A DNA stretch of 64,000 nucleotides from Panopea generosa (lineage: Eukaryota > Mollusca > Bivalvia > Adapedonta > Hiatellidae), in the NCBI GenBank assembly GCA_029582155.1, contig CM055911.1, forward strand, positions 27,493,452 through 27,557,451. The letters are read 5' to 3'. The notes under the pieces are model-generated. The model did not search any database. It was not told where the DNA came from and was given only the letters and a program-made list of their open reading frames with translations. Position numbers and translations under genes: made by a program. This document shows, in pieces, positions 11,193 through 59,102 of the stretch. Position 1 is the first letter of the stretch; each line of letters opens with the position of its first letter.

Positions 11193-11360
11193 CTGGGCAA
11201 GACTTGGGGTTACAAATGCTATTCTCGTCACTGTTTCCAATACATTGTCTCCCTAACACCGACAGTGATGGATTGTCACAGCGGCGTGTACGTTGCCATT
11301 GTCCGTAGCCACAAGATACACTACAGACTCCCCAGCCCGACCACGTGGACCACTGACCGT
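11193..11360 (-). CDS. TSP1 domain exon 3 (beside the satellite)
   Basis: A 168-base phase 1-1 exon (acceptor CTAAACAG, donor CCCAG|GTAACT). It encodes DGQWSTWSGWGVCSVSCGYG, a basic strand QRTRRCDNPS and the closing CNPKSCP. It differs from the exon at 58287-58454 by only a few residues, so one was copied recently from the other. The 83-bp satellite begins about 17 bases beyond the donor. Any following exon lies across or has been replaced by the array. Confidence 0.9.
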
Positions 11361-14300
11361 CTGTTTAGGAATATAAAACAAAAATGATGATGTTTCAGTA
11401 CGAGGAGAAATATACATTTTTTTCCAATATTTAAACGGATTAATTTAAATAATTGAAAGCCCAAAGCAGAATTAGAAAAAAATGTATGTTAACTTGTTCT
11501 ATATTGAATTTGGCAATTTGGTGTCACTTATATAATAGATACGATGACGATGCGGTTTTGGTAAGTGTACATGTACACATCTAGGGACAGCTAACGTTCT
11601 GTCTTTATACCATTTAACCATGACCACGATATATTCCGGGTATTTCGGAGGCAATACCTATTGTTTTGGATGTTGAAAGTCCATCCTTAAAAGTTGCTAG
11701 TTGAGCGTAGTTATCACATCTTCGTCACGTCCAGACAAAACAGCATTGTAACTTCATTTATAGTGTTATGTGTTATCTGAACCGAGCCGTTGTAGGTGTG
11801 CGTATTTTTCTTGAATTATTATCAATTTTATTGTCAATTAATTGACCAATAAGCTAACGGGATACATGTATTGAACGAGTAGAATTTGTGTTATTGTCAG
11901 TCACTTCAATTATTAATTATTATATTCTATTTTGTTTGATAATGTAAAACTTAAACCCAAAATAACACTAATATATAAGGCACGCTATAAATGGAAGCAT
12001 TTAGATTGAGATTGAATATACTAATTAGTTTTGAATTTTTGATAGATGACAATGTCAAAGATTCGAATACAGCAGGCTAATCATAGAATTGTTAACATAT
12101 TTTATGGGCATTTAGCGACATCTATGCAGGAAGTATACTGATAAATCATGACGATTAGCGGAAGTAATTCTCAAGATACAAGTTTCAAAGAGGTAGTCAG
12201 TTATACTTGGGAAAGCAAGGTATATGGTCATGTAGGAATTTTAGGCAGTTATATTTTGAAAGGCCAGGTGGACGGTCATGTAGAATTAAGTCAGTTAACA
12301 TGGGGGGAAACCAACTGTTAAGATGGGTTTTAGATGGTTGGGTGTTGTAGAAATGCAAGTTGGGTTGCGTGGTGGATTATGATAATGTTGGTGTTTAAGT
12401 AGGAACTGAAACTAAAATGGGAGCGTACTTTGAACCGTATTTTGAACTATATTTTAGAAACTATACATGTGTTTAATAGAATTCATTAAAGTTTAAAAAT
12501 GACAGTTGTAACAATGTAAGAAATAAATGTATATAGAAAATCGTGTGTTATGTGTTAATGATGTGCGATGGTGAAACAAGTTATAACTTCATTGTTAAGC
12601 TTATAAATCTATAATTATTGGTATAATTTAAATGCATTTAGCAGTGTTATTAATTATTTGCTGTATTAATATTTCCTAAAAGCAGTATTTTAACTATTTT
12701 ACCTGAGCATCCCCTTTCAAAGCAGCCTCTGTCATCCCTCGAGTCCCCAAAACATTGGAAACCGTTTCTGTCCGGGTAGGGACTCGAGCAATGTCTGTCC
12801 CTCCTCTGTAGTCCAACACCGCAAGTGACACTGCAGCTCCCCCAGGCGGACCACCGACTCCACGCCCCGTCAACTATTGCATAACAAAACTTGTAATCGG
12901 GTAATTTAACAAATACTTCCGTCAAGGCAAAACCAATCTTAAACCAGTAAGTAAAATGTTTATTTCAGTTGTAAGGCTCTAACGGCAGACTAGAATAAGT
13001 TTCATAGTCGTCTTTCGTATTTCAATGTTCAACTCGAAACTGACCGTAACTTAATCAACCTCCATTATTGAAGAGTACCATAGGTCAATATCGAAATACT
13101 ATATGTCATTTTATATTCTACACGAAACTGACCCTGACCGTAACCTGCTAAACATGCAATATTGAAGAGTAACAGGTCAATATGGAAAGACGATATGTTT
13201 TTTTATGTTCCTTAGGAAGCTGACCATAACCGCAACTTCTCAACCTCCAATATTGAAGAATACATAAGTCAATATCGAAATACTATGTCATTTTATATTC
13301 TACACGAAACTAACCCTAACAGTAACGTACTTAACCTCCAATATTGAAGAGTTTTATAGGTCAATATCAAAAGACGAAATGTTATTTTATATTCCACAGC
13401 AAGCTGACCATACATGTAACAGTAACGTACTCAACCTCCAATATTGAAGAATACATAAGGCAATATCGAAAGACGAAACATAATAGCTAACATTTCACTG
13501 CTGTCCCTAAGTTTATAAAATGTCGCTAAATGTATTTGTATATTTTTGCGTTATGGAATATTGAGATCAGAGAAATGTATGCATATGCATTCGTAACTCT
13601 GCTGGCATATATAAGAATTCTATATAATTATTATAATTATATCCTTCAGTGGCATATATAAGAAGTCTTTATATAAATACTTCAGTGATTTAGAATAGAA
13701 GTAATCACTTAACGTCTCACACACCAATTAATTTTGAACTGTTCTACATATAGAGACATGCACTTCTGGAACACTGGATACATTACCAATGGTTCTAAAA
13801 GTGCCTTATTCCCATAGATAGTCCTCTGCTGGTCCAAATATGCAGAAAAAAACATGGGGTTGACCAGGTTGCTTTTTCACAATTTCGATGGTTTGATGGC
13901 ACCCCTTCATTTTTGACAATTCTGCCCATTTGTTGCAGTGTATCACTACGCATCTTTAAACTGTTATAGCATCATCAAACAGTTCCCAGGGTCACCCAAA
14001 CTTTGCAGAAATCATGAAAATGTTCCAATGTTCCCATATGCACAAAGAAATATGATATTTTATGCATTTTTAAAAAAAAAATTACCCAACCGCTTTACAC
14101 AGCTCTAATTTCTTGGGCGTAATAATCTTGCTACCGTCATGCAAGGGAGGTAATTGTTCAGTGAGACCTTGAAGAGTAGATATTGTCATGACATGTGACT
14201 GAAATTTTTGTCGAACAAACCTTTACCATTTCTAAATATAAAAGTACGCCTTTTGAATTCATCGCGCAACTGTTTTCGAATTCATGCACCAAAATAAGAT

Positions 14301-17300
14301 GGCGGTCACACATGCATAAATCAGTTTCGGACGACTCGAAAACAGGAAAAACTGCCAAATTTTTTTAGCCATTGTACCTTAATAAAAATAATTCTAGAAA
14401 AAGAAATAGTTTGAAAATGTCCTTGTATTGCCTCCTATAGTGTATCTATCTGACTGCGTATTCATTTTATTGTATATGCAACATTACATAACTTAAGTGT
14501 CAAAATACATGACCATATATGGATAAATAGCTGTTTTTGCTTCAAATAATGCTCCGTTTTGTTGCGAAACTATATATTTGACTTTTTTTATATCTATAAC
14601 AAACAAATATTAATGTTTGAAGGTGCCCAGCAATAATTTGCATGTCACTGACACTAACCATGCCCCCTTTTTCAATACATGAATGAATAACATACTTTTG
14701 TACATGCATTAGATTCATTATCAACTATGAATATATCCCTTACCAATTGAGGTATCTATTAGGCATATATTAAATTCCTATACTATTTTGTTTATTTTAT
14801 CAATAAAAATAGCAAATGAAAGTAAAGTGTTCATGAAAATCACTTTAAAGCAAGAAAATGAAACGATGAATGAAAATGAGACAAAATATGGATACAGCAT
14901 ATTTGGCTGGACCGATAAGCTCATTGTAAAAAGACGGTTTGCTAAAGCGCATCTCTTTACGACAAATTAGTTTGAAATAAATATATCAAAGAATATCGCT
15001 ATAAGAAATATTTGTCGCGAGATGACTCGTTTCTTTACAGATTTTCCAAAACTGGCATAAAAAAATGGGCAGTTAAAATAGAGTTGTTGCAATAATTATA
15101 TGAAAATTAGAAATTGTCATATTTGAGAATGCTATACTGTTGAATGTGGAGAAAAATATTGTACACATTCAATAACAGACATTGAAAAAACATCATCTTC
15201 AATGAGAAAAATCTATATTCTATAGCAAGCATCATGTATTTTTATTTGAAAAAAAAGTAAGAAGAACAACCGAAAGAAATCAGATGATGGTACAAAAGTT
15301 TCAAGCACAGGTTAACTAAACGCTGAGAAATTATTACGCGAATCTGTTTCGCGTCATTTCAAAGATGTCGCATTTTACCATTTACCTGAATGTCCAAGAG
15401 TAGGTAAATACTGTGTATAAGCCAGACCCAGCCGCATAAATATCAACAATGAGGAGAAAAAAATGACAGTAAAACAAAAATGGCAGTCATACGCCATACC
15501 ATTAAAATGAAACGCGACAGTTTGGCGGTCGGTATATCGAAAACTGGATACAGAGCTGTTGATAACAAATATCAATGACAAAATAATGAAACAGGAAATT
15601 TCTCCATAATTCGTGATCAATATAATATTAATTGATAAACAGCGACATAAAAACAATATTGCTCATACGCGACCAACCGTATTGTCAAAAAGCATGCGCT
15701 AAAGAGTGGAAACAGTATCGCGACAAATGTTACCATTTTTATGTGGGTGGGGTATGAATTATACATAAATAATGAGTTTCTTACACAAAAAAATGGTTTA
15801 ACTTACATGAATCATGAAATCTGGATGCAGTGAATGCTCTAAACATGCTTTTGTTGTGATATATTAGCATCACTGTCTCTCTGTGTGACTTTCAAGTGTT
15901 TTTAAGAGCAAACTTCTATTCATTTTAGCCAGGATTTTGAGACAGATGGCTAAAATCAAGTCTTATCACATGATGCAGCAAAGCATATTTGCATACATGA
16001 TCATTTCTTTTTCAGTTAAGTAGATGATCTCACTTTTTGTTCCTTCCATTGAATTGAATAAATCCTGATTCCAACATTTCCATGACAAATTTTCAGCTGC
16101 TCAGTCTCATTGCCCTATTTGCTTTACTGTTTTAGCTTCAAGTTTGGTTTTGCCTGTGTGACACTTCTCTATTACACTCAAAGTCATCCATTTTTCACAA
16201 AAAAATACATTTATTTTTCCATTTAGAGGTTTCAAATACAGTATTTCCCATAGAAAGTGACATATTTTCAAAAAGAAAGTAAATCTGAATCACAAAGATG
16301 CAGTTTCCTCCCAGCGTCTACCGAAAATGATCTGATTCTTGAACGTCTCACACACCAATTAATTTTGTACTGTTCTACATATAGAGACATGCACTTCTGG
16401 AACACTGGATACATTACCAATGGTTCTAAAAGTGCCTTATTCCCATAGATAGTCCTCTGCTGGTCCAAATATGCAGAAAAAAACATGGGGTTGACCAGGT
16501 TGCTTTTTCACAATTTCGATGGTTTGATGGCACCCCTTCATTTTTGACAATTCTGCCCATTTGTTGCAGTGTATCACTACGCATCTTTAAACTGTTATAG
16601 CATCATCAAACAGTTCCCAGGGTCACCCAAACTTTGCAGAAATCATGAAAATGTTCCAATGTTCCCATATGCACAAAGAAATATGATATTTTATGCATTT
16701 TTAAAAAAAAAATTACCCAACCGCTTTACACAGCTCTAATTTCTTGGGCGTAATAATCTTGCTACCGTCATGCAAGGGAGGTAATTGTTCAGTGAGACCT
16801 TAAGCATAATTATATACTGTGATTATTACACTGATAGAAATATGAAACAAGTTTTAACTTACTCGGACATTTTCCCATAGTGCAAAGTATATGTTGTGTG
16901 GAATTTCCTACACAATCAAGACCTCCGTGCGCAGGTGCCGGATCTGAACAGGTGCGCGTTCTTGTCATCTGACCACTTTCACATGAAACGTCACAGCTTG
17001 TCCAGTTTGACCAAAAGGACCACGAGCCGTCAACTTTTAATAATGACAAATGGTTCAATTTCGTTATATTTGAAAGGCATTAAATATAGATAATGATACA
17101 CAGGATGTAACGTCATATGTGACTTCAGGCAACTTTACAAATTAGTTTGGTTTGAAACCTATTGACTTTAACATTGCCTTGTCACAATATATTAAATAGA
17201 AAGCAAAACTATAAACATAGTTTACACTTTTACTATTCTGCTTAAAGTACAAACGAATTGTTACTTACTGACATTGCACAAACCGCAGTATTTCCTACAG

Positions 17301-20300
17301 ACGGTTTTCGCGTGATTCACGTCAGTGCAGACATTGGATATAGAACTGACTCGCTCACAATCAAAACTCGGGTCGTCTATACAGTCGCCGAATTCGTTAA
17401 CAACTGTATTAAAAGCAAAAGAATTCATAAGATATGAATTGAAAAAAAAATACAAGAATTACAAAATAGAATCCAGTTAATACGATGTCAGATTAAGGTC
17501 ATCGTCACATCAACCTCTAACTAGGCTCGATGGTCGGTTGACTCATACTTGTTTGAAGCATTGTTTTTGCTATCTATTCTTGCTGTTGATGCTACAACTA
17601 TCGCAATGAATTAAACAAGGAATGCTCACAAATGTGAATTGAGTATGTAAATTTTTATTTATGCCAATAATAAAGTTAAGATTTGCCATGAAACATCATT
17701 AGATAAATTCTTCTCCTCAATTTACATACAATATTTCTAAATTACCTCTTTATAATAAATATTGGTAATACGTGACCTATTCAATAACTACATGTGATGG
17801 CGGTTTGCTGATTTAGATTCAGATCTTGAGTCAGTAAAAAACTATTATTTCCGTTCTTAAGATTATGGTCCAAAACCAAAAAAAAAGGCAAATTTATTAT
17901 AGCAACTCGTCATTAAATTGTCAATATGCAGGGATGTAGGATGCAGTGGCATTTATATGCAGTACATTGATGAAATCAAAATGTTGTAAACATCTTTAGC
18001 ATGACGCAACTTACTGGAGATTCCAGAAGAACACAGTTTTTTGTTACAAGCGTCTACAGAACAGCATTGGGAACAAGTCACGTGGTCTGATGTAGAACGT
18101 CCAATAATGGAGATTGGTGATACGGTTGTACTGGATACGTGTAGACATTCCTGTGGGAAGATAAGACACAAGTGTTGTAACAAATATTGGCTCCGTTTCA
18201 CACAAAGGCTTGCTTGGAGTTGAGGATAAAAATGAAAATGATAAAATAAACATAATAAGCAAATAAAAAGAAATATATGCCCAACAAGTGACATGCTATA
18301 CAAAAGATACAACCGCCAAAATTGCCGGAAATGATAATAAAGGTTACCGCGTTGAACGATAAGTAGCAAAACAGCTGCTTAAGAGTTCAAACCTTTGTAA
18401 CGGGTGCCGCGTTGAGCGATAAGTAGCAAAACAGCTGCTTAAGAGTTCAAACCTTTGTAACGGGTAGCCTCGCTCTTACCTCCTCTTACCTCACTATCAC
18501 ATCATAAAACGAGGCAATGTAAACAAACGTGTACGACTGCTCTCTTACAAACACAACTGTATACACATGTGTACGGTGTAAAATACAAAACCGATCAGTT
18601 GAATCTATAGATGGTTACTTTTCAAAATCCCGAGCATCTAGAGACTAATGATAAGGGTCGGACAAAATGAATAAACGAACACGTATGCAGCGCCTCTGTT
18701 TAAGGAATTAGGAAGGCTTCTCCAACGTTGAGGCTTCACCTCTTTAACCTTTACAAACGTTCCGTACGTTGAGATTAAATCAATATAATATATGTCGACA
18801 AAATGTACACACGGAATAATCATATCAATTCATGTTTATACAACTGTTGCATTTCCTGTTTTAAAAATGCTAATACAAATGCATGTCCCCATTAAGTTTC
18901 TTGTAGCATGCGCCAGAGCGTTGTCAGATAATTAATTTAAATCTGGTAATTAGTAAAACAGATCAGCATATTTTATTGTTTTAAGCAATGTTGCACTAAC
19001 TGCTCCTTTGAACTAACAATAAGACACGAAAAGTAAAACAGAATATTGTTATAGAACACTTTTATAAAGCAAGTAAAATCCACTTACTTGTTCTTGTGCA
19101 CAACCGAGCGTGTATGTCATCTGGTCGCCGACACCAGTTGCCTTCGTAAAGCATTTCTGAAAAGCAATTATAATATTTATAATTCAATATTTATAAACGG
19201 GTCGTTGCGGGAGATCATGAAAAAGGATTTTTTAAAAAAAATATTGGAAGGTATATGATTCAACATTAATATTGAGGACACCACACGTAATAAGGATAAA
19301 ATGGTGCACGCAATTTGTATTCTTACTTCTTTTCGTAAAGACCTGTCAATGGATATTTCAAAAGTCATCTTCATTCGTTATCACGTCACCTTTATACAAC
19401 AAGGTACGAGATAGAATTTTCGTTGTATGCGGCGCCATAATCGACATTGGTATTTTACCGAGTGTTTCCGGTAGGTAATGCTACATCAAGATTAAATACT
19501 ATTTTTTCAAACATTGTAAGGTGTGATTGTACAAAAACACTCACAAATTTATCCGCACTATTGACTGTCTTATAACATTTTTTTGTTATTGATGTAGATA
19601 TAAGGTAAATACCTCATTTGCTTTACACTGCTCGATGGTGTGACAGTTGGCCGTGCTGTTCACATTGGTGCATTTGTAACAATCCAAGGCATCTGTGAGA
19701 CGAAGTAGATAATAATCCAACATGTAATAGTTATAATAGTAGATATCACACACACAACCAGTCATGCTAAGTAAATGTCATTTTATAAGGCAGTGTCCGT
19801 CTGTCAGTCCGCCCGCCGTCTGTAATTTTTTTTTTTATTATGAAGTATAAACATATATAACTAAACGAATGATTATTGTCATTTTATGAAGAACTCTTTT
19901 GTTTCTATTTGATTCCCAAATCAATATGTCGTTGTGACTCGGTTAGACATCAACAAAAAATTGGTCATTTTATTTTTTTGTTGTGAAATATTTGAATACC
20001 ACATTATTTGCACACTAAAATATAAGCTTTTCATCAATACATTTGCAAACATGCGTATCCCACTGCATCCTTTACATAATCAATTACAGGTATAATTACG
20101 TACATTTATGCATTAAGGTTGATATGTAAATGCATACACACTTACATAGTTTACATACAACTATATGTACGTAATCAAGCACGTGTACAACCGTATCACA
20201 GATGCGCACGCGCACATACTTGTAAAACCGATGTTTGCAACATTTAAACAAGACGATAAAATTAACTTGCCTATGTTCACCGATTGCAGCAATATTACCA

Positions 20301-20319
20301 ACAGCAATAGGAACATCAT
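11193..20319 (-). CDS. spliced gene model: secreted LU-ShK-TSP1(x3) protein, 3' end missing
   Basis: Eight exons on the minus strand can be joined: 20319-20271 (signal peptide), 19692-19613, 19156-19088 and 18150-18015 (one Ly6/uPAR domain), 17403-17269 (ShK), 17033-16863, 12873-12703 and 11360-11193 (TSP1). Phases agree throughout: SP to LU phase 1, both introns inside LU phase 0, every later junction phase 1. The product would be an exported, disulfide-rich protein. LU, ShK and TSP1 modules commonly mediate extracellular binding or matrix interaction; the target here is unknown. No stop codon follows the last exon before the satellite array, so the gene is truncated, or continues across or beyond the array. 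An alternative is two genes, because a second signal-peptide-like exon lies at 15386-15497. Exon calls are strong, the joining is inferred. Confidence 0.72.
11361..12702. other. intron between TSP1 exons 2 and 3
   Basis: No coding signal. The first ~280 bases (11370-11650) match the sequence beside the TSP1 exons at 58460-58750 and, less fully, 59110-59340 and 59500-59710. This shows that whole exon-plus-flank units were copied between loci. The remainder is AT-rich and unannotated. Confidence 0.6.
12703..12873 (-). CDS. TSP1 domain exon 2
   Basis: A 171-base phase 1-1 exon (acceptor GCAATAG, donor TCAG|GTAAAA). It encodes VDGAWSRWSAWGSCSVTCG, then RRDRHCSSPYP and a final CFERGCS. Tryptophan ladder, basic strand and six cysteines are all intact. 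Its inverted counterpart at 50558-50724 shares both splice sites but is destroyed by stops. Confidence 0.9.
13020..13490. repeat. ~95-bp degenerate tandem repeat in an intron
   Basis: About five units share CAACCTCCAATATTGAAGA, AGGTCAATATCGAAA and a GACCATAACC-type stretch. Related single pieces occur near 58130 and 58785 and, inverted, near 50390 and 51490, all in the introns of related loci. The motif therefore belongs to the ancestral intron of this gene family. Confidence 0.75.
13714..14167. mobile_element. 454-bp MITE-like inverted-repeat element, copy 1
   Basis: Same termini (GTCTCAC...GTGAGAC), length and orientation as the copy at 16345-16798, and almost identical to it. Both lie in introns of the LU-ShK-TSP1 gene. 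Short minus-strand frames inside are not conserved intact in the third copy and are probably not genes. Confidence 0.75.
14168..15385. other. intronic sequence without recognised features
   Basis: AT-rich sequence between two copies of the inverted-repeat element. Short open frames on both strands lack splice support and resemble nothing recognised. Confidence 0.5.
15386..15497 (-). CDS. candidate alternative signal-peptide exon
   Basis: From an ATG at 15497 the minus strand encodes MAYDCHFCFTVIFFSSLLIF, then MRLGLAYTQYLPTLGHS, a signal-peptide-like stretch. It ends in phase 1 at a good donor (CATTCAG|GTAAAT). Phase 1 is exactly what the next TSP1 exon (12873-12703) needs. It may be an internal promoter/first exon or the start of a separate TSP1 gene. 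The frame is also open upstream of this ATG, so the start is uncertain and the exon has no second copy to support it. Confidence 0.35.
16345..16798. mobile_element. 454-bp MITE-like inverted-repeat element, copy 2
   Basis: Starts GTCTCACACACC and ends GTGAGAC, giving a short terminal inverted repeat. It matches the element at 13714-14167 along its full 454 bases with very few differences. Internal sequence includes CATGGGGTTGACCAGGTTGC and GCTACCGTCATGCAAGGGAG. No transposase is encoded, so it would be non-autonomous. A clear target-site duplication is not visible. Confidence 0.75.
16863..17033 (-). CDS. TSP1 domain exon 1
   Basis: A 171-base phase 1-1 exon (acceptor TTAAAAG, donor CCGA|GTAAGT). 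It encodes VDGSWSFWSNWTSCDVSC, then RTRTCSDP and a terminal CTMGKCP. The WxxWxxW tryptophan ladder, the CSxxC-type pair, the Arg-rich strand and the six-cysteine spacing are all present. The WSxW context is a usual site of C-mannosylation in this family. A 454-bp inverted-repeat element ends about 65 bases from its donor. Confidence 0.9.
17269..17403 (-). CDS. ShK-type domain exon
   Basis: A 135-base exon with symmetric phase 1-1 borders (acceptor AATACAG, donor GTCA|GTAAGT). It encodes about 45 residues with six cysteines spaced as in the ShKT family: CIDDPSFDC at the start and CRKYCGLC at the end. In animals this fold is a common accessory module of secreted enzymes and matrix proteins, and in some lineages a channel blocker. 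Its position between LU and TSP1 exons points to an accessory extracellular module. No ShK exon is found in the other two loci. Confidence 0.82.
18015..18150 (-). CDS. LU domain exon 3
   Basis: Acceptor CTTCCCACAG and donor CTCCA|GTAAGT bound a 136-base exon entering in phase 0 and leaving in phase 1. It encodes ECLHVSS, a Ser/Thr-rich stretch, and then CSQCCSVDACNKKLC. The CC...DxCN ending is the diagnostic C terminus of Ly6/uPAR domains. With exons 1 and 2 the domain is complete (about 95 residues, at least ten cysteines). Most of this exon is deleted in the inverted paralogue at 49638. Confidence 0.82.
18347..18468. repeat. 60-bp tandem duplication in an intron
   Basis: About 60 bases beginning CCGCGTTGAACGATAAGTAG are repeated immediately, with one visible substitution (GAACG to GAGCG). 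It lies in the intron between LU exons 2 and 3. No function is evident. Confidence 0.85.
19088..19156 (-). CDS. LU domain exon 2
   Basis: Acceptor GCTTTTCAG and donor CAA|GTAAGT bound a 69-base, phase 0-0 exon encoding KCFTKATGVGDQMTYTLGCA and three more residues. It supplies the central cysteines of the LU domain. The paralogous exon at 48832-48900 is nearly identical but has lost the acceptor AG and the first Cys. Confidence 0.8.
19613..19692 (-). CDS. LU (Ly6/uPAR) domain exon 1
   Basis: The acceptor TCTCACAG at 19693 opens an 80-base exon in phase 1 that ends in phase 0 at ...AATGAG|GTATTT. It encodes DALDCYKC...NCH...QCKANE, the classic LxCYxC opening of the three-finger LU fold. A same-length paralogous exon lies at 48358-48437 on the plus strand. 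Known families with this opening (Ly6, uPAR, prostate stem cell antigen) are GPI-anchored or secreted. Here the following ShK and TSP1 exons argue for a secreted multidomain chain. Confidence 0.8.
20271..20319 (-). CDS. signal-peptide exon of the LU-ShK-TSP1 gene
   Basis: Opens with two adjacent ATGs and encodes MMFLLLLVILLQSVNI, a short hydrophobic signal peptide. It ends in phase 1 (ATA G|). The donor is the non-canonical GC type, AACATAG|GCAAGT, an accepted minor donor with otherwise perfect consensus. The next exon starts in phase 1 and completes an Asp codon, then ALDCYKC. A TTTCAG stands just upstream of the ATG, so a 5' UTR intron is possible. Cleavage near the junction would put the LU domain at the mature N terminus. 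Confidence 0.62.
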
Positions 20320-30920: not shown

Positions 30921-33900
30921 CACTGCTACTGTAGAATACCGATACGACTGCTGATGATGACACTTCAGTATATAATTTATAAACAGCAACCATGACAATT
31001 CACAATCACTGATGTTGTAAAATACCGAGACAAGAGTACGGCTGCATAATTATGCTGATGACGACACTTCAGTATATAACTTCTAAACAGCAACAAAGAC
31101 AATTTACAATCACTGATGTAGTAGAATACCGAGACAAAAGTACGACTGCATATGCTGATGACGACACTTCAGTATATAACTTATAAACAGCAACCACAAC
31201 AATTTACAATCACTGATGTTATAGAATACCAAAACGACAAGAGAACGACAGCATAATTATGCTGATGACGACATTTCAGTATATAACGTCTAAACAGCAA
31301 CCACAACAATTAACAATCAATGATGTTGAAGAATAACGAGACAAGAGTATGACTGCATATGCTGATGATGACACTTCAGTATATAACTTCTAAACAGCAA
31401 GAACGACAATTTACAATCACTAATGTTGTAGAATACCGAGACAAAAGAATGACTGCATAATTATTCTGATGACGACACTTCAGTATATAACTTCTAAACA
31501 GCAAGCACAACAATTCACAATCACTGGTGTTGTAGAATACCGAGACAAGAGTAAGACTGCATAATTATGCTGACGACGACACTTAAGTATATAACTTCTA
31601 AACAGCAACCAAAACAATTCACAAACACTGGTGTTGTAGAATACCAAGAAAATAATACGACTGAATAATTATGCTGTTGACGACACTTCAGTATATAACT
31701 TCTAAACAGCAACCACAACAATTCACAATCACTGATGTTGTAGAATACCGAGACAAGAGTACAACTGCATAATCATTCTGATGACGACACTTCAGTATAT
31801 AACTTCTAAACAGCAAGCACGACAATTCACAATCACTGATGTTGTAGAATACCGAGACAAGAGTACGACTACATAATTATTCTGATGACGACACTTCAGT
31901 ATAAAACTTCTAAACAGCAACCACAGCAATTCACAAACACTGATCTTGTAGAAAACCGAGACAAGAGTACGACTGTATAATTATGCTGATGTCGACAATT
32001 CAGTATATAGCTTCCAAAAAGCATTCACAACAATTCACAATCACTTGTGTAGTAGAATACCGAGACAAAAGTGGGACTGCATAATAATGCTGATGTCGAC
32101 AATTCAGTATATAGCTTCTAAACAGCAACCACAACAATACACAATCACTGATCTTGTAGAATACCGAGAAAAGAGTACGACTGCATAATTATGCTGATGA
32201 CCACACTTCAGTATATAACTTCTAAACAGCATCCACGACAATTCACAATCACTAATATTGTAGAATACCGAGACAAGAATACGACTGCATAATTGTGCTG
32301 ATAACGACACTTCAGTGTATAACTTCTAAACAACAACCACAACAATTCACAATCACTGATGTTGTAGAATACCGAGACAAGAGTACGGCTGCATAATTAT
32401 GCTGATGACGACACTTCAGTATATAACTTCTAAACAGCAACCAGGACAATTTACAATCACTGATGTAGTAGAATACCGAGACAAAAGTACGACTGCATAT
32501 GCTGATGACAACACTTCAGTATATAACTTCTAAACAGCAACCACAACAATTCACAATCACTGATGCTGTAGAATACCGAGACAAAAGTATGACTGCATAT
32601 GCTGATGTCGACACTTCAGTATATAACTTCTAAACAGCAACCACAACAATTCACAATCACTGATGCTGTAGAATACCGAGACAAAAGTATGACTGCATAT
32701 GCTGATGTCGACACTTCAGTATATAACTTCTAAACAGCAACCACAACAATTCACAATCACTGATGTTGTAGAATACCGAGACAAGTGTACGATGGCATAA
32801 TTATGCTGATGGCGACACGTCAGTATATAACTTCTAAACAGCAACCACAACTATTCACAATCACTGATGTTGTAGAATACAGAGACAAGAGTACGACTGC
32901 ATAATTATACTACTGATGACAATTCAGTATGTAACTTCTAAACAGCAACCACAAAAATTCACAATTATTGATGTTGTAGAATACCGAGACAAGAGTATGA
33001 CTGCATATGCAGATGACGACACTTCAGTATATAACTTCTAAACAGCAACCACAACAATTCACATTCACTGATGTTGTGGAATACCGAGACAAGTGTACGA
33101 TTGCATAATTATGCTGACGACGACACTTCAGTATATAATTTCTAAACAGCAACCACAACAATTCACAATCACTGATGTTGTAGAATATCGAGACAAAAGT
33201 ACGATTGCATAATTATGCTGATGATGACACTTCAGTATATAAATTCTAAAGAGCAAGCTCGACAATTCACTATTACTGATGTTGTAGAATACCGAGACAA
33301 AAGTACGACTGCATAATTATGCTGATGATGACACTTCAGTATATAACTTCTAAACAGCAACCACAACAATTCACAATCACTGATGTTGTAGAATACCGAG
33401 ACAAAAGTACGATTGCATAATTATGCTGATGATGACACTTCAGTATATAACTTCTAAACAGCAACCACGACAATTCACAATCACTGATGTTGTGGAATAC
33501 CGAGACAAGAGTACGATTGCATAATTATGCTGATGACGACACTTCAGTATATAACTTCTAAACAGCAACCACAACAATTCGCAATCACTGATGTTGCAGA
33601 TTACCGAGACATGAGTACGACTGCGTAATTATGCTGATGACGACACTTCAGTATATAACTTCTAAACAGCAACCACAACAGTTCACAATCACTGCTGTTG
33701 TGTAATACCGAGACAACAGTACGACTGTATAATTATGCTGATGACGACACTTCAGTATATAACTTCTAAACGGCAACCACAACAACGCACCATCTCTGAT
33801 GTTGTAGAATACCTATACAAGAGTACAACTGCATAATCATTCTGATGACGACACTTCAGTATATAACTTCTAAACAGCAATTACGACCATTCACAATCAC

Positions 33901-35600
33901 TTATGTTGTAGAATACCAGTTCAAATGTACAACTGCATAATCATGCCGATGACGACACTTAAGTTTATAACTTCTAAACAGCAACCACAACAGTTCACAA
34001 TCACTGGTGTTGTAGAATACCGAGGCAAGAGTACGATTGCATAATGATGCTGATGACGACACTTCAGTATATAACTTCTAAACAGCAACCACAACAATTC
34101 ACAATCATTGATGTTGTAGAATACCTATACAAGAGTACAACTGCATAATCATTCTGATAACGACACTTCAGTATAGAAGTTCTAAACAGCAACTACGACC
34201 ATTCACAATCACTTATGTTGTAGAATACCAGTACAAATGTACAACTGCATATTCATGCCGATGACGACACTTAAGTATATAACTTCTAAACAGCAACCAC
34301 AACAGTTCACAATCAATGGTGTTGTAGAATACCGAGACAAGAGTACGATTGCATACTGATGCTGATGACGACACTTCAGTTTATAACTTCTAAACAGCAT
34401 CCACAACAATTCGTAATCACTGATGTAGAATACCGAGACAAGAGTACGACTGCATAATTATGCTGATGACGACATTTCAATATATAACTTCTGAACAGCA
34501 ACAACAACAACATACAATCACCGATGTTTTAGAACACCGTGACAAGAGTACGATTGCATAATTATACTGATGACGACACTTCAGTATATAACTTATAAAC
34601 GGCAACCACAACAATTCACAATTACTGATGTTGTAGAATACCAAGACAAGAGTTCGACTGCATAAGCTGATGACGACACTTCAGTATATAACTTCTAAAC
34701 AGCAACTACGACAATTGACAATCACTGATGTTGTAGAATACCAGTACAAGAGTACAACTGCATAACTATGCTGTTGACGACACTTCAGTATATAATTTCT
34801 AAACAGCAACCACAACAATTCACAATCACAGATGTTGTAGAATACCGAGACAAGAGTACGTCTGCATATGTAGATGACAAAACTTTAGTATATAACTTCT
34901 AAACAGCAACCACAACAATTCACAATCACTGATGTTGTAGAATACCGAGACAAGAGAACAATTGCATAATTATGCTGAAGACGACACTTCAGTATATAAC
35001 TTCTAAACAGCAACAACAACAATTCACAATCACTGATGTTGTAGAATACCTAGACAAGAGTACGATTGCATAATTATGCTGATGACGACACTTCAGTATA
35101 TAACTTCTAAACAGAAACCACAACAATTCACAATCACTGATGTTGTAGAATACCGAGACAAGAGTTCGACTGCATATGCTGATGACGACACTTCAGTATA
35201 TAACTTCTAAACAGCAAGCACGACAATTCACAATAACTGGTGTTGTTGAATACCGAGACAAGAGTTCGACTGCATACTGATGCTGGTGATGACACTTCAG
35301 TATATAACTTCTAAACAGCAACCACAACAATTCACAATCACTGATGTTGTAGAATACCGAGACAAGAGTTCGACTGCATATGCTGATGACGACACTTCAG
35401 TATATAACTTCTAAACAGTAACCACGACAATTCACAATCACTGATGTTGTAGAATTCCGAGACAAAAGTTCGACTGCATATGCTGATGACGACACTTCAG
35501 TATATAACTTCTAAACAGCAACCACAACAATTGACAATCACTGATGTTGTAGAATACCGAGACAAGAGTACGACTGCATGTGCTGATGACGACCCTTTAA
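30921..35600. repeat. 98/104-bp tandem array (~45 units) carrying a palindrome
   Basis: Units contain CACTTCAGTATATAACTTCT, AAACAGCAACCACAACAATT, CACAATCACTGATGTTGTAG and AATACCGAGACAAGAGTACG. Most end in GCATAATTATGC, a perfect 12-base palindrome with a TAATTA core; a shorter class lacks six bases and has GCATATGC, itself an 8-base palindrome. Neither length keeps a reading frame. Minus-strand frames through it (for example 34209-34409) are therefore repeats of noise. Divergence between units is moderate. Confidence 0.95.
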
Positions 35601-48300: not shown

Positions 48301-48357
48301 GTAGTACCATATATTATAACTATTACATGTTGCCTTATTTTCAACTTTTTCTTACAG

Positions 48358-48437
48358 AGAGTTTGGTCTGTTACAAATGTTTCAATGCAAACAGCACTGC
48401 TAATTGTCATAACACCGAGCAGTGTAAAGCAAATGAG
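48358..48437 (+). pseudogene. LU domain exon 1 of the decayed paralogue (itself intact)
   Basis: Acceptor TTTTTCTTACAG and donor GAG|GTATTT bound an 80-base exon, the same length and phases as 19613-19692. It encodes ESLVCYKC...NCH...QCKANE with all cysteines kept. Considered alone it is functional; the downstream exons are not. Confidence 0.75.
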
Positions 48438-49672: not shown

Positions 49673-50557
49673 AACATGCTAAAGATTTTTTAATTTTGTC
49701 AACACCCTTGCATATCAATTTCACTGTATCCCACATTTCGGCATATTGACAACTAATTGACTGGTTACTAAAATGAATTTGCCCATTCTTTGTTCTTTAT
49801 ATAATCACAATAAGGGGAATAATAGATTATATAATAATAGACACAAAATCTGAATCTAAATCAGCAATCCAAACCATCACTTATGGTCATTAAAAAAGGG
49901 CACGTATTACCAATATTCATTCCATAGAGGTACTCTAGTATGTGAATTGAGGTGAAGTGTTTTTTAGAAGATAATATTCACGGCAACTGTATTGTTGATA
50001 TAAATACAGCATCAATTCACAATTGTTAACAATCCTTGTTTTATTCATTGCGGTTATTGTAGTAGCAAAAATTGTGTAGGCAATTCCACCCAACATAAAC
50101 TGTGCACACTTGGATAATGTCCTAGTAAGTTACACCTCGATTCATGTTTCAACAAGTGTGATTATTACAAAATATAACCATAATAAATAGATCACTGATG
50201 ACCTTAATTGATAAATAACATTATTTCATATAAACAAATGTCGCATATGCCTTCAGAGTTAGAAATACACATTCATATATTATATCGATCTCAGTATCAA
50301 AAAACGAAAGGGTATACGCGTCGTGAAGTTAGAAGTAAGAAGTTAAAATGATGTTCCGATTTTCGTATTTCCATATTGACGCAGGTTATTCTTTAATATT
50401 GGAGGCTATGTATATCAGAGTTACGTTCATATATAATTGCAAAGACGAAAATACAATTCGAAACAGTTTGACGTTAGTGCCTTACAACTGAAATTTTTTT
50501 TTGCCTTAACTGAATTATTGGTTAAATTACTCCATAACATATTTTGTTCTGCAATAG

Positions 50558-50724
50558 TTGACGGTGGATAGAATCGGTGATCCGGCTGAAGAAGCTGTAG
50601 TCTTAGTTGCGGTGTCGGACTACAGAGGGACAGACATTGCTCGAGTCCCTACCCGGAGAGAAACGATTTCCATTGCTTTGAGGACTCGAGTGATGACAGG
50701 GTTGCTTTGAAAGGGGATGGTCAG
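50558..50724 (+). pseudogene. TSP1 exon with all three ladder tryptophans turned into stops
   Basis: Counterpart of 12703-12873 with both splice sites conserved (GCAATAG and TCAG|GTAAAA). The three Trp codons of WxxWxxW are TAG (50569), TGA (50578) and TGA (50587). A three-base and a one-base deletion follow; the latter shifts the frame. Cannot encode a TSP1 domain. Confidence 0.88.
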
Positions 50725-51181
50725 GTAAAATAGTTATAAAAATCAACATGTTTATTTAAGAATTATTATGTATGATGATTTATTAAACGAAATAAAGCGA
50801 TCAATTTGGTAACATTGTTAAATTAATCTAAGCAAACGTTTTATATATAATTTTTTTATAATATAACTATTCAAAACAAAAAGCCATGTTTAAAAACTGA
50901 CTTTTATTCTTCAATAAATATCTTTGTCTCCAAAATGTCCGGGAAATATCACGGCCGTGGAGACAGAATTTCAGCTGCCCCTAAATGAAAATATATATAT
51001 GTTATACAAATGACATCATCACGTTGCTTTTGCTATTAAAAGTCGTGTATTCTAATTCTTCTTTCAGAAATCAGTTGAACAATTAAGTTCAAGTAATTGA
51101 AAACATTAAAACCTAATATTGGGAAAGCTTAATGCATCCCCTCACACATATAGAACATGTTTGTTTTATATCTATAAACAG

Positions 51182-51349
51182 ATGGCCAGCGGTCCACGTG
51201 GTCGGGTTGGGGAGCGTGTAGCGTATCTTGTGGATACGGACAACGGCAACGTATACGCCTCTGTGACAATCCGTCACCGTCGATGTTGGGAAAGCAATAT
51301 CTTGGAAACAGTGAAGATAATAATATTTGTAACCCCAAGCCTTGCCCAG
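51182..51349 (+). pseudogene. TSP1 exon, open but missing key residues
   Basis: 168-base phase 1-1 exon (acceptor TAAACAG, donor CCCAG|GTAACT), open throughout. It encodes DGQRSTWSGWGACSVSCGYG and ends CNPKPCP. The first ladder Trp is Arg, and one framework Cys codon is TAT (Tyr), so folding is doubtful. It is related to the exons at 11193 and 58287. Confidence 0.7.
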
Positions 51350-51511
51350 GTAACTAATAATCATAGTTGTTAGCCTTGCACTACAATCGTGATATATGTC
51401 TGCCAGTCATTTAATCAATAAAAAGTTAGAAGTTAGTTTGAAAATCATGTGTCGTCGTTCGGTATTCACGTGTGCAACTCTTCAGTATTGGAGGATGAGA
51501 AGGTTTAGCAG

Positions 51512-53440: not shown

Positions 53441-53446
53441 TTATTA

Positions 53447-53482: not shown

Positions 53483-53483
<1 letters not shown>

Positions 53484-53484
53484 G

Positions 53485-53972
53485 CTGGCCAAACAGCCTT
53501 CACGGTGAGTAATCCAAAAGGTACGTTGTTAGCGGATATTCCGATATTCACACATATACACAACAACATTGGCGGCGGTTATAACCAGACAACGGGCAAG
53601 TTCACCTGTCATCTGGCAGGACTCTACCAATTTTCAGTAACAGTCAGGTAGTATGAATCGCCAGGAGCAGCTGTCGTTTATTATTATGTTAGACACAATT
53701 GTCATAATGGTGTATATGCTGACACTGATCCTAGCGCATCAGGTTACGACTCAGGAACAGTATCTATGTTCTTAAGACTCATTGTGGGCGATGTTGTTGA
53801 TTTAGCATGTGGAAATTGGCAATACGTTAAAATAGACATTGGTACAGTTTTCAGTGATGCTCTTGTCTGTCCTTATCAAATATATGAGAGTCGCTACATA
53901 TATATATATATATATATACTGAACGGAGCAGCTAATACTTTTGTATTTCCAATAACTTTGTCGATATATTGA
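53485..53972 (+). pseudogene. C1q domain exon with an internal stop
   Basis: From a phase-1 acceptor the frame encodes AGQTAFTV, FTHIHNNIGGGYNQTTGKFTC, LAGLYQFSVTV, YYYVRHN, GTVSMFLRLIVGDVVDL and FSDAL, the ordered beta-strand signature of a C1q head. A TAG at 53649-53651 interrupts it. After the last strand the frame runs through a (TA)n microsatellite (53897-53918) and stops at 53972, where the intact homologue at 57003 ends in GALIAAA. The domain would normally trimerise and bind ligands outside the cell. Confidence 0.8.
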
Positions 53973-54969: not shown

Positions 54970-55145
54970 AGTTACCGCAAGTAACTGATAACTTTCCCAC
55001 TTGAATCTGTGGCGAGAGACGAATGATAATGAGACACAATGTCGTATATCAATCATCACGGAGACTGTTGCCGGGCGGGGTATTCGAACTCACGACCCCT
55101 GGATTGATAGTCAGACGCGTAACCGACTGAGCTAATTGGGCTCTG
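54970..55145 (-). mobile_element. tRNA-derived SINE, subfamily 2, complete head
   Basis: On the minus strand it reads GCCCAATTAGCTCAGTCGGT (A box), TCTGACTATCAATCCAGGGG and GTGAGTTCGAATACCCCGCC (B box). Then come CAACAGTCTCCGTGATGATT, TCATTATCATTCGTCTCTCG and CAGTTACTTGCGG. The head forms most of a tRNA cloverleaf sequence pattern. Copies at 23046, 40335 and 38610 are less complete. Confidence 0.75.
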
Positions 55146-55299
55146 AAAAGGAGAAACACGATATAAACAAATACGACACATATATAAATATTTTCAAAAT
55201 ATATCATTAATTAAATTTTAATAAGAGGCCCACGTCTCAGGTAGAAGGACTTGGATATAAATATCCTTGTGTCGTCATACATTCATAGAAGTTAAGATA

Positions 55300-55335
55300 A
55301 ATCTCCCCCACCCAACCCCCCATCCCCCCACACAC
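55300..55335. repeat. C-rich / (CA)n tract
   Basis: CCCCCACCCAACCCCCC is followed by CACACACACAC. It immediately precedes the CpG-rich repeat region. Confidence 0.7.
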
Positions 55336-55394
55336 ACACTCATAAGAAGACCAAGACTAAAAATCCTAAAAATTTCGATGAACGCAGCGGGGAC

Positions 55395-55945
55395 GTGGTC
55401 TTTACGGAAAAAAAGTGCGATTTTTAAGTTCATATTACGTCCTTACTACGTCGCTTCCAGGTTTTCACTGCGTGTAACACGTCCCCGCTAATATCTTACC
55501 ACGCGTATGATCACGCGCGCACCACGTCCAATGCGTTCTTACTACGGCCTTACTACGTTCTTATTACGACCAATCATATCTCAACACGCTCTTACCACGA
55601 GCTTACCACGCAATTACCATGCTTACAACCCAGTGACAACGCAGTGAGAACGCCATGCAGTCTTTCCCATCAGCACCATGCTTGTACTACTTCAATGAAG
55701 TCTCTACGTTAGTTACGTTGATACTGCGTCATTGCCGTCATTACCTCGTCATTATTAGGTTCTTACTGCTTTCTGATTCAACCATGTCCTCACTACGTTT
55801 TTTTAACATGTTCAAAGTTTGACCACGTCTTCCACGTCCATGGAGACCATTTCACGACCTTATTGATTTCCATTGCGTTCTTACTATACTGTACACATTC
55901 TTACTGCGTCCACCCATTTTTTAAGGACGTTGTGGGAACGTGGCT
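55395..55945. repeat. CpG-rich degenerate short repeat (TTACTACG-type)
   Basis: Imperfect 10-12 base units such as CGTTCTTACTACG, CTTACCACG and CGTCATTACC recur over about 500 bases, giving many CpGs in an otherwise CpG-poor window. The edges are GGGGACGTGGTC on the left and AACGTGGCTGAGTG on the right. No coding frame persists. It could be a distinct dispersed element or a decayed array. Confidence 0.6.
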
Positions 55946-56304
55946 GAGTGTGAGATTAGGGTGTGGGGGGAGGGTTAGGGTTTTTTGCAACATTACCGTC
56001 AATCGTCCTTCCTCGGCCAATTTCGTCATCCTTCCGTATTAGACTCCATTAGGATAATCGGGAAGGTGGTCCGAATGCAAAACCGTGTGTCCTTTTAAAT
56101 AATCTTGGTTGCACATTGCGCTAAAAACAGAAACGTTCCGAATCGGTATTGTTAATAAAATGAGGAAACTTTATCAATAATGAAGTATGAAAAAGGCAAA
56201 AATGTTATGCTAATATATTTTAGCTATTTGCGACTTAATAAAACTTATATGAATCACCCTTTAGTAGTATTCTCGAATGATTTTTCAGTTTTGTTTTTAA
56301 ACTA
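55946..56304. other. no recognised feature
   Basis: Short G-rich piece (GGGTGTGGGGGGAGGG, near 55959), then AT-rich sequence. Confidence 0.4.
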
Positions 56305-56390
56305 GATGCTGCCGTGAAGAGCTTGTGATCTAAACCGCAACCTCCAACATGAGTGGCCAACACTATATCCTATCCACTAACTCTTAATTA
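56305..56390 (-). mobile_element. tRNA-like SINE head (minus)
   Basis: Minus strand: GAGTTAGTGGATAGGATATA, GTGTTGGCCACTCATG, GAGGTTGCGGTTTAGATCAC. It is collinear with the head at 136-210, including GTGTTGGCC and GGTTGCGG, but the B box is degraded. Confidence 0.5.
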
Positions 56391-56821
56391 AAACTCTTCA
56401 ACGTTTTACTATTCTACCCTTTGAAGGTACCGATAAGCCAGGACACAGAGTCTGATAACCGGAAATAGCCGACTGATGTTTTACCAGCTTGTATCACCAT
56501 CTCGCCAATATAAAGAGAATCTCACTTACCAACAAACGAAAGGCCTGAGTTAACCGGGCCCGGCTATTGAATATTGTAAAAAAGCTATTCTTCACTTTAC
56601 ATTGTCAGTCATTTGACGGTTATTAAACATAAACCTTAGATATCTAGTTTACCATGAAAGATTGGGTTATTGTGAGAGTTGTTTTGACTATGTATTTGGT
56701 GTCCATACTTGCTTGTAAATTTTGTTCTGAAAATAAAACGGGTCTCTAAATGTGTTTTTTAAAATTCATTCTTGAGTTCAATTCTAAGAATATTCTTAAG
56801 AATGGTTGGTGAATATCACCC

Positions 56822-56850
56822 CAGAGCTTCAACTGTAAACCAAGCTGTGG
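56822..56850 (+). repeat. isolated relic of the 83-bp satellite
   Basis: AGAGCTTCAACTGTAAACC, then AAGC, matches the satellite core AGAGCTTCACCTGTAAACC-AAGC with one substitution over 23 bases. Flanking sequence does not extend the match. It lies about 150 bases beyond the stop of the intact C1q exon. Confidence 0.5.
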
Positions 56851-56909
56851 GTAAAGAGTTGTTTGATTCTTGTACACTTCATCTAACAGATCAAAGTAAA
56901 ATAATCACG

Positions 56910-56915
56910 TTTATT
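56910..56915 (-). terminator. poly(A) signal for the TSP1-C1q gene
   Basis: AATAAA on the minus strand, about 90 bases downstream of the C1q stop codon, in the expected place and orientation. Confidence 0.5.
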
Positions 56916-57002
56916 TTATTTATAATTATGTGTGTCATATGTGCATGCTTGATTGTCAAGAATTATATTATACTTAAAATATTATATCAATGTGCAATAC
57001 AT

Positions 57003-57413
57003 TCAGGCAGCTGCAATTAGTGCCCCACTAAATATAGCGGTGTCCGAATGTTCGACACTTGTCCATCCGCCACAATACAGGTTCACTCTGTCACCTACTG
57101 CCAATGTAAGGTATGTTGACGTCGAGGCACTCTTCCAGCTGTCACCTAATTCGACATATATATATGCTCTTACAATGCTAGAGTCATTATGTCTAATATA
57201 GCAATAAGATATTCCCGAAGACGTCGTAAATGAAATTGAAAACTGGTAAGTTCCGGCAACAGTGCATGTAAAATCCCCGGATGTTTTGTTGTAACAGTTG
57301 CCGATGTTGGTGATTACTTTGGTAAATATAGGTTGTCCAGTAGTCGTGCTGCCACTGACGAGAGTTGGCGACGGATAATACGCTGAGAAGATTATAACTG
57401 GGACTGAAATAAC
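57003..57413 (-). CDS. terminal C1q domain exon
   Basis: The acceptor TTATTTCAG (AG at 57415-57414) opens 411 bases in phase 1, ending in TGA. The product contains SAYYPSPTLVSG, PIFTKVITNIGNCYN, GDFTCTVAGTYQFSISF, CYIRHNDSSIVRAYIYVE, STYLTLAVGDRVNLYCGGW and IFSGALIAAA: a full C1q head of about 136 residues. No collagen repeat precedes it. The frame is also open 5' of the acceptor, and a start at 57593 with a hydrophobic stretch is possible, which would make a free-standing C1q. I prefer the spliced form because site, phase and the paralogous locus agree. Confidence 0.88.
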   Translation of the reverse strand, partial: VISVPVIIFSAYYPSPTLVSGSTTTGQPIFTKVITNIGNCYNKTSGDFTCTVAGTYQFSISFTTSSGISYCYIRHNDSSIVRAYIYVELGDSWKSASTSTYLTLAVGDRVNLYCGGWTSVEHSDTAIFSGALIAAA

Positions 57414-59102
57414 AATATGAGAAACAAACAAGTAAAACAAACCACAGTCTATACATACGTGTTGTTGTATTGGTTTACTGGCTAGTCGTATTCCTGTTAC
57501 TAATGAGAACAGACGACGAAAATGAATATATAACAAAACGAATAACATAAGATAAACCAATGGCGGATCTATTCCTATAAAAACCCACCCCACTCATTCC
57601 ATGTTTTATTTAAATCCACAATATTTATACTGAAAAACATGTGTACCCGTTCAGGTTTTATGTTGCGCACTCTATGTCTCCCCTCCCCTAAAGAAAAACC
57701 TTGATTCGCCCCATATTTTCAGTCATATTCAATTTGTTGACTCTTGTTCTATCACCAACGAGTGCAGACGATTTGAACAAATGTAACTGATGTAATTAAA
57801 CAAAGACAAATTTCTTCTTATCCAGTACAGTTAATTAGAAATAGATAATATGTTTAATAAATATATTTAATATAAATCTATTTGAGATGTACAAACAAAC
57901 ATGTTTTATTCTTTTTTAAAATACCTTTATATAATTTCATTGTGATTAGAAAAGAGTTCAACATCCTCTATGAGTGTTTCCCATTTCTATACTGTGGAGA
58001 ATAGTACATGTATACACCGGATATTGGACTAGACAGAAAATATTACAGGTTTGGAAAACTAAAGCTAACTTGACATTCATGCTTTGGTTTTCGGTATTCA
58101 ATATCAAACTAAACCTAGCCCTAACCTCCTCAGTCACAATATTGAAGAATTACACACACGAATACCGAAAAGGGACCAATAAATATCAAACTCACTTCAA
58201 CTGCTTATTGGTTTATTGACTGACTGACATATCTCACGATTGTAGTGTAAGCAAGACTGTCCATTTTAATATCTATAACTAGTTACCTGGGCAAGACTTG
58301 GGGTTACACATGCTATTCTCGTCACTGTTTCCAATACATTGCCGCCCTAACACCGACGGTGATGGATTGTCACAGCGGCGTGTACGTTGCCTTTGTCCGT
58401 AGCCACAAGATACACTACAGGCTCCCCAGCCCGACCACGTGGACCACTGACCGTCTGTTTATCAATATAAAACAAAAATGATGATGTTTCAGTACGAAGG
58501 GAAATATACATTTTCTCCAATATTTAACCGGATTGTTTATATGTGCAATTTAAATAACCGAAAGCCCAAAGCAGAATTAGAAAAAAAAATGTTAAATTGT
58601 TTTAAATTGAATTTGGAAAATTGGTATCACTTATATAATAGATACGATGACGATGCCGTTTTGATAAGTGTACATGTACACATCTTAGGACAGCTGACAT
58701 TCTGTCTTGATACCATTAAACCAAGACCATGATATATTTCGGGTATTTCGGAAACAATACTTCCCTAACCTCCGCATTCACAATATTGAAGAATTACACA
58801 CATGGATATCGAACCACGACCAATAAATATCAAACTTCAACTGCTTATTGTACTGGTTTATTGACTGACCGGCATATTTCACGATTGTAGTTTAAGCAAG
58901 ACTGTCCGTCTTAATATCTATAATTACTAGTTACCTGGGCAAGACTGTGTGTTACACATGCTTTTATCTTCACTGTTTCCAACACATGACCTCCCCAACA
59001 CCGACGGCGAAGGATTATCACAGAGGCGTGTACGTTGACGTAACCCTGAACCACAAGACACACTACACGCTCTCCAGTCCGACCACGTGGACCACTGACC
59101 GT
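57003..59102 (-). CDS. spliced gene model: TSP1-TSP1-C1q, 5' exons not found
   Basis: Three minus-strand exons join in phase 1: TSP1 59102-58935, TSP1 58454-58287 and terminal C1q 57413-57003. All are open, with canonical splice sites and a stop. The product would be an extracellular protein with a C-terminal C1q head. No signal-peptide, LU or ShK exon was found upstream within the window, so the gene may start beyond it, may be a partial copy, or may use an undetected first exon. It is the only locus here with an undamaged TSP1-to-C1q junction. Confidence 0.7.
58287..58454 (-). CDS. TSP1 domain exon, downstream copy
   Basis: 168 bases, phase 1-1 (acceptor ATAAACAG, donor CCCAG|GTAACT). It encodes DGQWSTWSGWGACSVSCGYG, RQRTRRCDNPS through the basic strand, and CNPKSCP. 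Almost identical to the exon at 11193-11360. The neighbouring intron sequence is also shared with that locus. Confidence 0.9.
58935..59102 (-). CDS. TSP1 domain exon, upstream copy
   Basis: 168 bases, phase 1-1 (acceptor TAAACAG, donor CCCAG|GTAACT). It encodes DGQWSTWSDWRACSVSCGSG, the basic strand RQRTRLCDN and CNTQSCP. All six cysteines and three tryptophans are kept. Confidence 0.9.

Follow-up and report, generated by a model that had tools for sequence, protein, structure and literature searches.

A putatively secreted protein family in Panopea generosa combines a fixed LU-, ShK- and TSP1-like stalk with C1q heads of separate history

Do the LU-like, ShK-like, TSP1 and C1q exons scattered over a 64-kb window of Panopea generosa contig C18 (27493452-27557451; 1.47-Gb genome) belong to one kind of protein, and what might such a protein do? 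The window, by which we mean the whole stretch of DNA analysed, holds three loci with TSP1 exons: gene A, the decayed gene B, and gene C, which runs past the window edge; gene D lies to the left of it. From gene models obtained by splicing genomic DNA on paper, we propose that these genes represent an expanded family of putatively secreted proteins, predicted to combine a fixed N-terminal stalk (a leader, an LU-like domain, a ShK-like domain and several TSP1 domains) with a C-terminal C1q head. Heads and stalks have different histories. We put the probability at about 0.55 that the family, its architecture included, represents a recognition protein whose stalk is constant and whose heads have been exchanged and evolve fast, acting in a multivalent, opsonin-like role.

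Gene C, on the minus strand, speaks most directly for a single protein. Its last three exons lie inside the window and its six 5' exons in the 5.4 kb past the window edge; spliced together, the nine encode 492 residues, stop-free until the terminal stop, in the order signal-like leader, LU-like domain, ShK-like domain, four TSP1 domains and C1q, with a TSP1 exon immediately 5' of the C1q exon. Gene D follows the same exon plan and stays open as far as its stop codon, in sequence that covers all but the beginning of the leader. Every join in genes A and C has phase-1 borders, with the exception of a phase-0 intron within the LU domain; in genes A, C and D a GC splice donor (exon AG, intron GCAAGT) closes the leader exon, which in genes A and C is a hydrophobic, Met-started exon 1 that by eye resembles a signal peptide. 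The sequence-only reading, made within the window, had proposed one protein running from LU through ShK and TSP1 to C1q, pieced together from three partial loci, and this order is found directly in gene C, in gene D bar the leader start, and at no fewer than 15 loci of the genome census. The locus at 57 kb is more than a TSP1-C1q gene: the leader, LU, ShK and two more TSP1 exons of that locus lie just outside the window.

All six TSP1 stretches tested exceed the Pfam TSP_1 cut-off of 21.6 (41.2-52 bits), and the earlier claim of TSP1 exons with phase-1 borders stands for genes A and C; per protein, TSP_1 scores are 137.8 bits over four stretches in gene C and 92.6 bits over three in gene A, and the best PDB sequence matches of the TSP1 row are thrombospondin-1 (7yyk, E 2.5e-38) and properdin (1w0r, E 5.2e-37). 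The C1q domain passes its Pfam cut-off of 23.7 in gene C (59.2 bits, intact) and gene D (66.7); AlphaFold2 predicts a C1q fold for that of gene C (predicted local distance difference test, pLDDT, 93.5), and the Foldseek matches in PDB closest to this predicted head are C1QL2 (best, E 2.4e-9) and C1QL1. The joined LU domain scores 17.9, 15.5 and 12.4 bits against Toxin_TOLIP in three genes, short of the cut-off of 21.2, and at most 14.8 against UPAR_LY6 (cut-off 24.8), while the ShK domain reaches 16.5 and 18.0 bits in two genes, below its Pfam cut-off of 20.9; PDB profile searches with LU and ShK returned no match at E 10. In both domains the cysteines are invariant across all seven genes aligned: ten in LU, with the CC-x4-CN ending typical of Ly6, and six in ShK. 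In the 492-residue protein of gene C, no collagen repeat was matched at E 0.05, a profile scan found no immunoglobulin, SUEL or fibrinogen domain at E 0.05, and an NCBIfam scan gave no result.

The same order recurs across the genome. Searched exon by exon, the genome yields 29 matches to the LU exon, 69 to ShK, and at least 150 each to TSP1 and C1q, for which the best 150 candidates were scored, making these counts lower bounds. Same-strand chains, built from 146 of the 150 C1q matches of one search (four second fragments being dropped) and 41 of the 150 of another together with the LU, ShK and TSP1 matches, include at least 15 in the full order LU-ShK-TSP1-C1q and at least 23 in the order ShK-TSP1-C1q. 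Partial chains, among the matches listed, comprise 7 of LU-ShK-TSP1, 2 of LU-TSP1-C1q, 5 of LU-TSP1, 11 of ShK-TSP1, 6 of TSP1-C1q and 1 of ShK-C1q, alongside chains of a single module (11 ShK, 25 TSP1 and 140 C1q); all 29 LU matches open a chain that includes TSP1. Within 25 kb downstream on the same strand, a TSP1 match follows 28 of the 29 LU matches (mean 11.6, maximum 20, in 500 trials with random strands), a ShK match 22 (8.0 and 15), a C1q match at least 16 (5.8 and 12) and the full order at least 14 (1.5 and 5); with all strands inverted, the corresponding counts are 2, 2, 1 and 0. Because random and inverted strands destroy it, the pattern of order and strand is more than chance. The 14 full-order LU matches and the 15 chains arise under different rules and are not identical sets; the 25-kb limit leaves out two E-type loci and lets one LU match on contig C3 reach its neighbour's C1q.

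How, then, are the two parts of these proteins related from copy to copy? Between genes C and D, 212 of 233 stalk residues are identical (91%; LU1, LU2, ShK, T1 and T2), against 38.6% or 44% of the head in two comparisons. By blastn, exon and intron blocks of the two genes align at 69-91% identity as far as the last TSP1 exons, and the head falls within no block of at least 60 bp; the change therefore probably lies in the last intron. The wider comparison covers nine genes of the C18 cluster, six with type I heads (like gene C) and three with type II heads (like gene D). In the 18 pairs of a type I with a type II gene, synonymous divergence (dS) of the stalk is 0.16-0.37, and the proportion of synonymous differences (pS) in the head is 0.73-0.83, that is, saturated. 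Head data reject the stalk tree (log-likelihood difference 326; approximately unbiased test, 4e-122) and stalk data reject the head tree (34.8; 0.0004), with the limits that nine genes only were tested, that the H head was joined over a frameshift, that G and I enter without T2 and F without T1, and that one or two bases of intron enter the codons at the module borders of the alignments; the stalk tests leave out gene A, gene B and the E-type genes. Among the type II genes, the stalks of D and I are far apart (dS 0.29) and their heads almost the same (0.041); in D and F it is the stalks that are close (0.086) and the heads that have diverged more (0.294), a discordance that points to a second head-exchange event.

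Relatives of both head types lie elsewhere in the genome. Compared with five of the ten heads of an array on contig C19, type I heads show a pS of 0.36, against 0.77 to type II heads on sister stalks; this array, the C19 array nearest to type I, spans 22.2-22.5 Mb, with whole matches 61-72% identical. In a tree of 28 heads, which takes in eight of the ten fetched C19 heads, one head with its stop written as X and one partial C3 head, type I joins the C19 array (96%), with C4 next at 62% support, and type II joins the E-type heads (95%) and then the heads of C3 0.8-2.5 Mb and of C16 (95%). Identity of ShK to gene A is at least 88% in all ten type I and type II copies listed, 81-83% in E-type copies and at most 76% in C3 copies; going by this order, the type II head is probably the one that arrived together with the stalk, and the type I head the one acquired. 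The 1.5-kb flanks of the ten copies in the 22.2-22.5 Mb array hold no TSP1 and no convincing leader 5' of the heads. A separate, large C1q array occupies 11.0-12.5 Mb of the same contig in a mirror arrangement, with plus copies at 11.0-11.47 Mb and minus copies at 11.9-12.47 Mb.

Rates of change also part head from stalk. In three pairings, the ratio of nonsynonymous to synonymous proportions of differences (pN/pS) is 0.15-0.23 in the stalk and 0.77-1.02 in the head (Fisher p 0.001, 0.00015 and 1.1e-5, on rounded counts), and by module it is 0.21 for LU1, 0.35 for LU2, 0.11 for ShK, 0.13 for T1, 0.16 for T2 and 0.32 for the last TSP1. We infer that the stalk of the C18 cluster is held by purifying selection and that its heads are fast-evolving. 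Loops of the head can be assigned to the two ends of the fold by the strand alternation of the jelly roll. Among 15 type I heads, nonsynonymous differences per pair average 0.434 over the 38 loop residues of one end and 0.129 over the 20 of the other, with synonymous differences equal between the ends (0.183 vs 0.180); the permutation p of this contrast, 0.0024, is optimistic because the loop boundaries were drawn after the variability was known.

With all module borders in phase 1, bar the intron inside LU, a head could be replaced through the last intron without a break in frame, and we propose that heads of the C18 cluster have been exchanged at least twice, once in the change between type I and type II and once in the discordance of D with I and F. 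In the Foldseek results, the titles of several solved relatives describe trimers, and that of C1QL1 a hexamer; the head would trimerise like solved C1q domains, giving a three-headed end from which three stalks would extend. At its variable end the head would bind variable, probably microbial, ligands, with the TSP1 row as a spacer keeping the head away and the constant LU/ShK end binding one constant host partner, and the whole molecule would serve in solution as a multivalent recognition protein or as an opsonin. A stronger version would have germ-line cassettes in which a constant LU-ShK-TSP1 stalk takes swappable C1q heads through the phase-1 intron, these being shared with C1q arrays partly on other chromosomes, so as to give combinatorial recognition diversity that may differ between individuals. 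We hold that version to be doubtful, in part because C19 heads nest weakly inside the C18 type I heads, which does not speak for a supply of heads from C19. If a constant stalk with exchanged heads is the true account, an animal that presumably lacks antibodies would have a second way of diversifying recognition; annotators, for their part, gain from the architecture a rule for connecting exons that would stay apart in a domain search alone.

Several points weigh against the recognition reading, beyond the limits already given with the tree test, the alignments and the loop contrast. Its evidence is of one kind, genes, taken from genomic sequence and a predicted fold, and the labels LU and ShK are assignments by cysteine pattern, below the Pfam cut-offs. 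The intervals of the head pN/pS include 1, so that relaxed constraint is possible; over 15 heads (ten from the C19 array, that of H left out) the ratio is 0.49, and LU exon 2 and the last TSP1 have the highest ratios within the stalk. The C18 cluster includes decayed genes (B and H) and gene F with a TSP1 frameshift. LU exon 1 contradicts the ShK order, E-type copies being 52-55% and a C3 copy 69% identical to gene A, and the split between types I and II on its own amounts to one replacement, because the stalk tree places H with 47% support. The nesting of C19 heads inside C18 type I heads, weak as it is (74-76%), would fit head movement from C18 to C19 and not the reverse. Finally, gene conversion of stalks could yield part of the head/stalk pattern. 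In its full form, which we consider possible and clearly less probable than exchange, the heads stayed where they were: two old gene types had their stalks homogenised by conversion, their heads kept the old differences, and a head was copied to C19. The copies do stand in both orientations within about 260 kb, their likeness reaches into introns, and the C19 nesting is what copying from C18 predicts; however, type II heads fall together with those of C3 and C16, and the near-single head that D and I carry on distant stalks implies that there the head moved, or was converted, alone. The two accounts agree that head and stalk histories differ.

What the protein does can be read in other ways as well. 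The sequence-only reading had offered a recognition or a matrix protein; selection and the separate histories favour recognition, indirectly, and the matrix option is kept as a rival that we think unlikely, namely a structural protein or a component of mucus (shell matrix, glue). In limpet pedal mucus, TSP1 and ShK domains are found in different proteins (PMC7333891), and one C1q protein has been connected with the formation of shell (PMC7806589); a conserved stalk with a fast head, changing at one end of the fold, is instead the pattern of diversified binding, not of a scaffold. Fast recognition domains set on a constant frame would suit gamete proteins too, and a reproductive (gamete recognition) protein with fast heads is conceivable, though in our view improbable. 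Bivalve C1q proteins are discussed mainly as microbe-recognition molecules (PMC6835236), which tells against it. It is most improbable of all that LU-ShK-TSP1 and TSP1-C1q are separate proteins, merely neighbours by position: gene A has no C1q, and the models come from genomic DNA alone, yet genes C and D splice in frame through to the C1q stop and order and strand are kept at the full-order loci of the census.

Gene A (minus, 20319-11193) consists of a leader, two LU exons, ShK and three TSP1 exons, without C1q (Table 1). The earlier placement of a leader, LU and ShK 5' of TSP1 at 11.2-20.3 kb is upheld by exons and cysteine patterns, and falls short in that joined LU and ShK stay under the Pfam cut-offs. 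An 83-bp satellite starts about 20 bp past the last TSP1 exon and may have replaced the C1q exon of gene A. A C1q exon further to the left was considered and is ruled out by the absence of any minus-strand C1q match at E 0.05 over 41 kb, down to genome position 27463452. The intron between TSP1 exons 1 and 2 also holds identical open frames at 13798-13971 and 16429-16602, probably a repeat element, and between genes A and B lies a 104-bp tandem array of about 45 copies (window 30949-35579).

Gene B (plus, 48.4-53.9 kb) is decayed, retaining LU exon 1, a TSP1 remnant, a stop-ridden TSP1, an open TSP1 and a stop-bearing C1q that scores 40.0 bits over its first 55 residues (from 53484) before the stop. 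Two loci had been said to end in C1q: that at minus 57.0 kb does so intact, and that at plus 53.5 kb is recognisable and broken by a stop. The decayed locus had also been read as the link between the two halves of the protein; the first half of LU and the C1q are indeed there, while neither LU exon 2 nor ShK was found at the locus. We therefore dropped gene B as the link, which the whole genes supply. To the left of the window, at G000:C18 27489823-27491632 (+), a stop-bearing TSP1 fragment is accompanied by a truncated type II C1q, probably another decayed copy.

Table 1. Coordinates of features in the window (positions counted from its first letter, except where a contig is named)
Feature	Position	Strand	Basis or score
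Gene A exon 1, signal-peptide-like leader, GC donor	20271..20319	-	Spliced model; leader by eye
Gene A LU exon 1	19613..19692	-	Toxin_TOLIP 22.3 bits (open reading frame + flank), sub-threshold once joined
Gene A LU exon 2, CC-x4-CN motif	18015..18150	-	Phase-0 intron between LU exons
Gene A ShK-like exon	17269..17403	-	16.8-18.0 bits vs cut-off 20.9
Gene A TSP1 exon 1, phase 1-1	16863..17033	-	Pfam + spliced model
Gene A TSP1 exon 2, phase 1-1	12703..12873	-	Pfam + spliced model
Gene A TSP1 exon 3, last recognisable exon	11193..11360	-	Pfam + spliced model
83-bp satellite array, 127 copies, 92% matches, 10.6 kb	601..11172	.	Tandem Repeats Finder (TRF)
Gene B LU exon 1	48357..48437	+	Toxin_TOLIP 21.0 (exon + flank), under cut-off 21.2
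Gene B TSP1 exon 1 remnant, internal stop	50070..50126	+	
Gene B TSP1 exon 2, three stops; match ends short of exon end	50557..50700	+	
Gene B TSP1 exon 3, open	51178..51351	+	Pfam
Gene B C1q exon, type II head, one stop	53484..53867	+	
Gene C six 5' exons (outside window)	G000:C18:27562876-27558284	-	
Gene C TSP1 exon 3	58935..59102	-	Spliced model
Gene C TSP1 exon 4	58287..58454	-	Spliced model
Gene C C1q exon with stop codon, type I head	57003..57403	-	Pfam, AlphaFold2, Foldseek
TSP1 stretches tested	11188-11364(-), 12653-12964(-), 16813-17079(-), 51178-51354(+), 58282-58458(-), 58930-59106(-)		Pfam TSP_1

Two further observations concern the surroundings of genes C and D. About 3 Mb from the C18 cluster at 27.30-27.56 Mb, part of it recurs in mirror image at 24.13-24.26 Mb, where the twin of gene C differs by a dS of 0.014 in the stalk and by a dS of 0.005 and a nonsynonymous divergence (dN) of 0.022 in the head; this copy may reflect either a true inverted duplication or a misplaced haplotype. 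Within gene D, the TSP1 exons at G000:C18 27468683 and 27476958 share identical DNA over a stretch that starts 158 bp ahead of the match start and ends 209 bp past it, which indicates a recent intragenic duplication.

How does this family compare with C1q proteins already described? Those of the oyster have been classed as head only, collagen-tailed, coiled-coil, multi-C1q and other; unusual designs such as oyster SUEL/C1q and the gastropod immunoglobulin/C1q QREP are known, and the oyster expansion has been put down to tandem duplication and subsequent selection at single sites (PMC6835236). The accessible parts of PMC8905726, PMC10672478 and PMC11312191 contain no C1q protein with TSP1, ShK or LU, and those of the first two lack the word 'thrombospondin'; this is weak evidence, subscription journals being mostly outside the search. 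Rows of TSP1 domains like those found here occur in properdin and thrombospondin-1. To our knowledge, those two proteins are without C1q, LU or ShK. FREPs, with a conserved N-terminal part and a diversified C-terminal recognition domain, work as this family would, but are made of immunoglobulin and fibrinogen domains, neither of which was found in it. FREPs of molluscs are named in PMC5549309. The closest design is that of oyster sSUEL/C1q and the gastropod QREPs, in which a binding module precedes a C-terminal C1q (PMC6835236); these carry SUEL or two immunoglobulin-like domains, for which this family gave no match. Bivalve C1q-domain-containing proteins (sghC1q, sC1q-like types I and II, and smultiC1q) likewise have a leader and a C-terminal C1q and form large, tandem-duplicated families, with episodic positive selection reported in the C1q domain; as classed in the accessible part of that source, they have no N-terminal extension, or a coiled coil, a collagen tail or several C1q domains (PMC6835236), whereas here LU-, ShK- and TSP1-like modules bordered in phase 1 make up the N-terminal part, and heads differ in history from stalks. 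Positive selection within C1q domains is already on record there; what appears new, as far as we have seen, is this architecture together with heads and stalks that have followed separate histories.

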